Source of the DNA: Thalassospira xiamenensis M-5 = DSM 17429 | Lineage (GTDB): Bacteria; Pseudomonadota; Alphaproteobacteria; Rhodospirillales; Thalassospiraceae | Reading direction: 5' to 3' | Assembly: GCF_000300235.2 (NCBI RefSeq) | Contig: NZ_CP004388.1 | Location: 353,501 to 417,500, forward strand | Length of the DNA stretch: 64,000 nucleotides | Part shown: positions 52,507 through 54,497 of the stretch, piece by piece | Layout: the number at the start of each line of letters is the position of its first letter | Numbering within the stretch: the stretch's first letter is position 1 | Position numbers and translations under genes: made by a program | The notes under the pieces: model-generated | Seen by the model: only the letters and a program-made list of their open reading frames with translations | Told to the model about the DNA's origin: nothing | Database searches by the model: none

Positions 52507-52789
52507 AATCCCACGAAGTAAAGTACACGAAATAAGGTAAAAGGCTGAATTACCGGTAAAGATGGTTATTTTCCGGCAATTTTGCCATCCGTACAAAGAC
52601 GCCGGGCGCGGTGGGTTCGCCATCAGACGCTGCCAATCATAGCATTTTCAACGCGCAATCTATCATGAATGCCGGTATTGAACAGCCTTCCGACCGGGTA
52701 TTTTTTGTGCGCTTGCAAAGTCGCTTTTTGACAAGGATCATCACCTGCCTGTAATCTCGGGCGTTACGGTGATACCTCGAATAACCGCG

Positions 52790-52887
52790 ATGGGAGAGCC
52801 CGCTTTGATCCCGCGATCAGATCGGCGCCGAAGGAGCAATAGCCCCGAAAACTCTCAGGCAGATGGACCGTTGCGGATTGAGGCTCT
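52790..52887 (+). ncRNA. Glycine riboswitch, first aptamer
   Basis: The conserved core of the gcvT-type glycine aptamer is present in order: GGGAGAG (52792-52798), GCCGAAGGAGCAAT (52827-52840), AACTCTCAGGCAGATGGACCG (52850-52870). The variable P3 arm lies between. Purine-rich GGAGAG pairs with CTCTC as P1/P2 in the known fold. Together with the second aptamer it forms the cooperative tandem arrangement. Confidence 0.9.
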
Positions 52888-53017
52888 GGAGAGAGAAAGC
52901 GGTACGGGGCCAACGCCCGGCACCATATTTCCACCGAAGGATGAAGCCATGGCGTCAAAGACTTCTTTGTTTTTGGCAACAGGGCGCACAATCTCAGGTC
53001 AAGGGACAGAGGGGGCA
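52888..53017 (+). ncRNA. Glycine riboswitch, second aptamer and linker
   Basis: The second aptamer follows at once: TGGAGAGAG (52887-52895), CACCGAAGGATGAAGCC (52932-52948) and AATCTCAGGTCAAGGGACAG (52990-53009), with a longer P3 arm between. The usual GCAA after the CCGAAGG element is altered to GAAG. Tandem aptamers normally act as a glycine-dependent ON switch. The following 65 bases should be the expression platform: a GTCATGTGG/CCGCATGAC hairpin (53036-53060) lies just before the ribosome site, and no intrinsic terminator is present, so control of translation is more likely. Confidence 0.85.
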
Positions 53018-53081
53018 AGACACCGGTTCTGTAACGTCATGTGGTATTGATCCGCATGACAAAGAGCCGTGGGAGGCCCAT

Positions 53082-54497
53082 TTGACCGAAGAAAATAAGC
53101 AGCGTCCGCAAGACGTTAATCTTTCCGTTGTCGATCTTTATACCATCGGGATTGGCCCATCGAGTTCGCATACGGTCGGCCCGATGCGCGCGGGCTATCG
53201 GTTCTGTCTGGAACTCGAAGCCCGGAATCTTTTGGAAAAAATCGGCTCGGTGATTGTCGATCTTTACGGATCGCTTGCCCTGACCGGCAAGGGCCATGCC
53301 ACCGATACTGCGGTGATCATGGGGCTTTCGGGGGAACGACCGCGTTCGGTTGATCCAGACCGGATCGCACCGACAATGGATGCGATTGATAAAGATCACG
53401 CATTACAGCTTTACGGCGCGCACCCGGTTGCTTTCAACCGGGATACCAACCTTGTTTTCCATATGACCGAAAGCCTGCCCGAACATCCCAATGGCATGCG
53501 GATCACCGCCTTTGACCGTGACGGTGTTGTTCTGCACAAACAGGAATATTTTTCGGTTGGGGGTGGGTTTATCGTCTCGGGCGATGATCGCGGGGCGGAA
53601 TATTCCGGCGATAATATCACGCTGCCTTATCCCTTTTCCTCGGCCGATGAACTGATGGCGATCTGTAAAAAGGAAAAGCTGTCGATTGCCGAAGTCATGG
53701 CCGAAAACGAAAAAAGCTGGCGTGAACCTGCCGAGACCGAGGAATTTGTCGACCGCGTGCATCGCGCGATGATGGATTGTATTGAGCGTGGCTGCAAAAC
53801 CGATGGCATTCTGCCCGGCGGGTTGAATGTCAAACGGCGTGCGCGCAAACTTTACCTTGAACTGACGGAACGGCCAGAAGCGGGGCTTAAGGACCCGTTG
53901 ACCGTGATCGACTGGGTCAATCTTTATGCCCTTGCGGTTAACGAAGAAAATGCTGCCGGTTCGCGCGTCGTGACCGCCCCTACCAACGGTGCGGCGGGTG
54001 TTATTCCCGCCGTGCTGCGCTATTATGAACGGTTCGGGGCCAATGTGACACAGGGCAAAATACGCGAATTCCTGTTAACGGCGGCGGCCATTGGTTCGAT
54101 CTATAAAAAGCGTGCGTCGATTTCGGCCGCCGAAGTCGGTTGTCAGGGTGAGGTCGGTGTGGCCTGCTCAATGGCGGCAGGCGCGCTTTGTGCCGTCATG
54201 GGCGGTACGCCCGAACAGGTTGAAAACGCCGCCGAAATTGGCATGGAACACAACCTTGGCCTGACCTGTGATCCGATTGGCGGTCTGGTGCAGGTACCCT
54301 GCATCGAACGCAACACCATGGGGGCGGTCAAGGCGATCAATGCTGCCCGTCTGGCAATGCGAGGTGATGGTCAGCATACCGTGTCACTCGATAAGGTAAT
54401 CGAAACCATGCGCCAGACCGGCATTGATATGCAAAGCAAATACAAGGAAACCAGTCAGGGCGGGCTGGCGGTCAATGTCAACGTGGTCGAATGTTGA
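53082..54497 (+). CDS. sdaA: L-serine ammonia-lyase (serine dehydratase), Fe-S type
   Basis: Deaminates L-serine to pyruvate and ammonia using a 4Fe-4S cluster. The N-terminal domain has [27 protein letters not shown]; the C-terminal domain has [18 protein letters not shown] and cluster cysteines in [20 protein letters not shown] and [19 protein letters not shown]. Translation starts at TTG 53082: GGGAGG lies six bases before it and the product (471 residues) begins a few residues before the family start; frames open further upstream would read through the riboswitch. Control by glycine makes sense because glycine is converted to serine by GlyA. A terminator follows. Confidence 0.95.

Follow-up and report, generated by a model that had tools for sequence, protein, structure and literature searches.

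Tandem glycine riboswitches of the RF00504 kind are known before gcvT, for instance in Neisseria gonorrhoeae (PMC13104608) and in the genome considered here, and consist of two aptamers followed by one expression platform near the start codon, with a G-run after aptamer 2. In the parts of PMC13104608 drawn on here, measurements show the gonococcal gcvT tandem to be a translational ON-switch, and a pseudoknot between a C-tract in P3b and the G-tract after aptamer 2 is described as frequent in ON-switches (Torgerson 2020, as cited there), where P3b is, in our reading, that of aptamer 1. According to the corresponding part of PMC6944388, the second aptamer is commonly the less conserved one in tandems ahead of genes for glycine cleavage. 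Serine genes, in turn, are rare glycine riboswitch targets in the passages used from PMC3766115, where such riboswitches are reported to control sdaA in betaproteobacteria and in two species of Mycobacterium. Moreover, the section of PMC12452182 concerned reports a glycine riboswitch on the Streptomyces gcvT-gcvH-glyA-sdhA operon, which is taken to act at scarce glycine, opposite to the reading given below.

The locus described here lies in a 64,000-nucleotide stretch of Thalassospira xiamenensis DNA (the window) and shares the aptamer and platform architecture of the gcvT tandems, but differs from them in its target gene, sdaA. Ligand class and target enzyme activity are those of the betaproteobacterial, Mycobacterium and Streptomyces cases in the parts of PMC3766115 and PMC12452182 cited above, while the lineages are others; furthermore, sdhA is the last gene of the Streptomyces operon, whereas sdaA here stands directly behind its own array. 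An earlier note on this DNA had presented sdaA as an unusual target, which overstated the case, as control of sdaA and sdhA by glycine riboswitches is in print in the same parts of these two papers. Hence, a glycine riboswitch on a serine deaminase gene is known from other bacteria, and the Thalassospira case is a well-supported new instance. A literature search on Thalassospira and riboswitches, whose coverage mostly leaves out subscription papers, returned no title on glycine riboswitches. The tandem is predicted to be a riboswitch of the RF00504 kind that probably turns on sdaA translation at high glycine.

Tandem aptamers and the gene behind them

The features of the leader and its gene are as follows.
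52781 to 52880, + strand: glycine aptamer 1 (RF00504, 59.7 bits, cmscan)
52842 to 52846, + strand: GCCCC, located in the P3b loop of the first aptamer; may pair with 53012-53016 as a P5 pseudoknot
52884 to 53011, + strand: glycine aptamer 2, with long P2 and P3b insertions (RF00504, 32.7 bits, cmscan)
52933 to 52942, + strand: 5' side of aptamer 2 P3, core ACCGAAGGAU, without GCAA; pairs with 52991-52999 through 8 standard pairs that are the same in 24 of 24
53011 to 53016, + strand: G-run GGGGGC after aptamer 2, common to the putative P5 and the predicted anti-Shine-Dalgarno helix
53013 to 53079, + strand: expression platform fold (fold z-score, pair counts on 24 sequences, whole-leader fold)
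53071 to 53076, + strand: Shine-Dalgarno (SD) sequence GGGAGG (from the letters; GGAGG invariant in 24 aligned sequences)
53082 to 54497, + strand: sdaA, L-serine ammonia-lyase, 471 aa, probable TTG start (TIGR00720, SDH_beta, SDH_alpha)

Both cores quoted in a row by the earlier note are present in the sequence, and the covariance search with the Rfam glycine model that it had proposed gave two matches above the gathering cut-off of 32 bits. In the cmscan of the 64-kb window these reach 59.7 bits (E 8e-10) for aptamer 1 and 32.7 bits (E 0.01) for aptamer 2, with nothing else above gathering thresholds; when only a 501-base stretch is searched, the E-values become 6.3e-12 and 7.9e-5, respectively. 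A whole-genome RF00504 search scores aptamer 2 at 37.8 bits over positions 1-94. Taken alone, the second match is weak, but it directly adjoins aptamer 1, and all 24 aligned sequences, from the window and 23 relatives, retain its core.

The gene product is an L-serine ammonia-lyase with SDH_beta and SDH_alpha domains, scoring 702.7 bits against TIGR00720 (sda_mono; curated cut-off 345.1 bits). The placement of a tandem directly before an L-serine deaminase gene is borne out by the RF00504 matches and the conservation within the genus given below. Judged from the letters, translation most likely starts at TTG 53082, five bases past the SD sequence GGGAGG (53071-53076). An alternative start at ATG 52863, opening a 544 aa frame, was rejected: this frame would cross aptamer 2, and GGAGG followed 3-6 nt on by an in-frame ATG or TTG is kept in 23 of 23 relatives. 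As to the extent of the element, proposed as 52790-53081, the downstream end holds in that the platform reaches the start codon, while the tandem begins 9 bases earlier.

Within the genome, four RF00504 matches form two arrays, one before sdaA and one before what we take to be a gcvT-like gene; gcvT-like genes were recognized here by eye from their translations. Two arrays occur in all 24 genus relatives searched (E 0.001), with four matches in 21 of them and three in the others (G010, G019, G023). In 23 of these 24, sdaA follows one array with 85-98% identity; in the remaining one (G008), the contig breaks off within the leader, which by its letters belongs to the sdaA type.

The variant core of the second aptamer

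The earlier note had pointed out that aptamer 2 lacks the usual GCAA after CCGAAGG, with a possible effect on ligand affinity. GCAA is indeed absent, yet this is not damage: a pair of P3 has changed on both sides, identically in 24 of 24 sequences. In the covariance alignment, CCGAAGG is followed by AUGAA, and on the opposite side of the helix AUC stands in place of the consensus CUC, so that GGAU faces AUC in all 24 aligned sequences. The innermost P3 pair is thereby changed on both sides from consensus G-C to U-A and the outermost one from G-C to A-U, while the two bulge A's are retained. Altogether, each of 13 pairs of aptamer 2 (8 in P3, 5 in P1) is of a standard type in 24 of 24 sequences; since none varies, this amounts to conservation and not to covariation within the genus. 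Going by these letters, aptamer 2 is a conserved version and not a decayed one.

Two other readings of this core bear on what the leader senses. A score barely above the cut-off and a long, variable P3b would suit an aptamer 2 that has lost binding and serves only as structural partner of a glycine-sensing aptamer 1; this is unlikely, given that 24 of 24 sequences retain the P1 and P3 letters of aptamer 2. Alternatively, the variant core might have switched its ligand, e.g. to L-serine, the substrate of the controlled enzyme. We regard this as extremely improbable; if true, the leader would be a two-input switch, with glycine at aptamer 1 and another amino acid at aptamer 2. The preferred reading keeps glycine as the predicted ligand of both aptamers.

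The model RF03166 (glycine-GGAnGA) belongs to the same clan as RF00504, and aptamer 2 of this leader contains the letters GGATGA. Assignment of aptamer 2 to RF03166 was nevertheless rejected, with 45.5 bits against a cut-off of 110 and letters that mismatch the model's aptamer 2 consensus, whose P3 is of another kind than the one found here. In the phylum sample, searched with strict filters, none of 398 genomes passed the RF03166 cut-off, and a literature search on the name glycine-GGAnGA gave no riboswitch title among the matches listed.

Expression platform and probable direction of switching

The 111 bases from 53000 onwards fold with -39.4 kcal/mol (z -3.03), a value reached by none of 200 shuffles. 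In this fold, GGGC 53013-53016 pairs with GCCC 53076-53079, CAC and GGUUCU pair with AGAGCC and GUG, and a hairpin spans 53036-53060. Across the 24 leaders, the platform pairs are standard in 85.0% of cells, compared with 28.5-44.0% in slid versions, and two-sided pair changes number 9 versus a shuffled mean of 5.9, a count attained by 1 of 500 shuffles. Eight of the nine lie in the hairpin, the tip of which is paired in just 42.6% of cells, and the number of further platform pair types does not exceed that of the shuffles (405 of 500 as high). The helix between the G-run and GCCC is paired in 100% of the 24 leaders and almost invariant; as it hardly varies, it gives no covariation. In local folds, the G-run pairs with GGCC[CT] beside the SD sequence in 24 of 24 leaders and, with a fold starting one base later, in 23 of 24, L053 losing the helix. 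Outside the genus, the helix appears in the local folds of four of six related leaders, made of other letters that match again, namely GGGCATCC/GGATGCCC (L128), GGCATC/GATGCC (L096, L097) and GGGCACC/GGTGCCC (L130), and is absent in L126 and L127.

At low glycine, the G-run after aptamer 2 would accordingly be expected to pair with GCCC between the SD sequence and the start codon, folding the initiation region away. The minimum-energy fold of the whole leader, in which G-run and GCCC are paired and P1 of aptamer 2 is unformed, is as expected of such an OFF state. At high glycine, both aptamers would fold, P1 of aptamer 2 would form and the G-run would be held, with the C-run in the loop of aptamer 1 P3b as its probable partner (P5 pseudoknot), whereby the initiation region would be freed. 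P5 and the pairing of G-run and GCCC are mutually exclusive, as both use 53013-53016. For the putative P5, 4-5 contiguous pairs can be formed in 24 of 24 leaders, whereas shuffled loops match in 24% and other leader stretches in 20% (means). In the alignment, 81.7% of the P5 cells are paired. The shuffle and window controls for P5 are weak, and a single sequence (L045) carries a two-sided P5 change, GCCCU with AGGGC.

The direction of switching was addressed by energy models in which the G-run is held and which contain neither aptamers nor a pseudoknot. In these models, the mean cost of opening the SD sequence plus 9 nt drops from 7.3 to 5.3 kcal/mol, with easier opening in 21 of 24 leaders, and that of a 20 nt window drops from 8.3 to 5.5 kcal/mol, with easier opening in 23 of 24. 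The SD sequence alone becomes easier to open in just 13 of 24. In the free platform, the five bases of the SD sequence fall within an internal loop and are mostly unpaired (mean probability 0.65); holding the G-run lowers this value to 0.36. Together with the count of 13 leaders, these values do not support simple masking of the SD sequence. The increased average pairing of SD bases once the G-run is held would suit an OFF switch, in which holding the G-run lets GCCC pair back on the SD sequence (GGGAGGCCC) and masks it when glycine is bound. This is very unlikely, considering that the whole initiation window becomes cheaper to open in the models (21 of 24 leaders for 14 nt, 23 of 24 for 20 nt) and that the ON type, in the parts of PMC13104608 and PMC6944388 referred to above, agrees with a target in catabolism and with stronger conservation of aptamer 1. 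Translational ON control is thus held likely from the lower cost of opening the window, set against the pairing of SD bases, and the energy models support the direction in part.

The stable platform fold could belong to a switch that terminates transcription instead of acting on translation; in the + strand of 52600-53200, however, there is no terminator-like site, and we consider this reading most improbable. Rho-dependent effects are possible. A sigma-70 promoter scan of 52600-53200 found none.

Compared with the translational ON-switch thus preferred for sdaA, the platform of the gcvT arrays seems to differ, to go by the letters: the 25 gcvT leaders of the genus carry other letters after the G-run than the sdaA leaders, and in 5 of them the best downstream helix pairs the 3' strand of P1 instead, e.g. 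GAGACAG/TTGTCTC (L046).

Distribution and proposed physiological role

In the rest of the order, 11 of 16 relatives have RF00504 matches, amounting to 12 arrays, none of which stands before sdaA according to tblastn. Eleven precede gcvT-like genes (by eye). The twelfth, a second glycine array in G034 (L090, G034:C31:6600-9600, at 475-1545), precedes a 2-hydroxyacid dehydrogenase gene with 2-Hacid_dh domains, which is an unusual target. A tree was built from 70 tandems (from the genus, 25 sdaA arrays and 25 others; 12 from order relatives; 8 Sneathiella-like or other ones; L129 being omitted). In this tree, the sdaA arrays of the genus form a clade of their own with a support of 0.994, which includes neither the gcvT arrays nor the six other sdaA arrays; because of low inner support and midpoint rooting, the tree does not separate one origin from two.

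In a sample of 240 genomes of the class, SdaA is found in 44 at E 1e-40 and a glycine riboswitch in at least 136, among the matches listed. An array stands directly before sdaA in at least 3 of these 44, i.e. the present genome, G081 and G208, while in G215 an upstream array is separated from sdaA by about 1.3 kb that hold another gene. For these counts, 29 relatives were scanned as loci, G117 was scanned separately and 13 were judged among the matches listed, of which 6 are without any match and 7 have listed arrays elsewhere. Of the best 80 among at least 592 named SdaA loci, six (L125-L130) have a glycine aptamer immediately upstream; they belong to T. lucentensis, two Sneathiella metagenome-assembled genomes (MAGs), two alphaproteobacteria and a Rhodospirillum MAG. 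These six are among the seven loci of the best 80 with an SdaA identity of at least 65%, the exception without an aptamer being L131. T. lucentensis is the closest named one in this set with 88%, records of the own genome possibly being excluded. Forty of the 80 loci were scanned with Rfam and all 80 with our own model R1, which finds L126, L127, L128, L130 and L147 by construction, as it was built from them; L125 and L129 are not part of R1. Unlike the arrangement described here, a Rhodoferax MAG (L147, 443-3383) has a D-amino acid dehydrogenase gene (NF009074) between its array and sdaA.

Further glycine arrays were noted beside other genes. In G215, the array (L211) precedes a D-amino acid dehydrogenase gene (NF009074). 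In G077 (L207, G077:C1:119800-122800), the array is followed by glutamine synthetase-like and aldehyde dehydrogenase-like frames (by eye). A short contig of G111 (L209, G111:C70) has aptamer matches at 274-362 and 1617-1705, about 1.3 kb apart, the first of which is followed by a frame that by eye resembles a membrane protein.

As regards physiology, the earlier note had suggested that surplus glycine is disposed of through serine to pyruvate. This fits the genome, which has a gcvT-like gene behind the other array and encodes one serine hydroxymethyltransferase. As glycine arrays precede both gcvT and sdaA, excess glycine would be expected to raise glycine cleavage and serine deamination together, feeding a route from glycine via serine to pyruvate. 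The genome also holds a second, more distant serine dehydratase-like gene (L231, 1450-3210; G000:C1:2321344-2322063) beside an FAD oxidoreductase-like frame. It scores 165 bits for SDH_alpha, under the NCBIfam cut-offs, and the RF00504 search of the own genome places no glycine array near it.

The 24 related leaders allow a comparative reading of a glycine expression platform, with the shared G-run as candidate switch point. In the passages of PMC3766115 drawn on here, sdaA targets are named only in betaproteobacteria and two Mycobacterium species; with the Thalassospira leaders, likely direct control by glycine would extend to serine deamination in a lineage of the Alphaproteobacteria.
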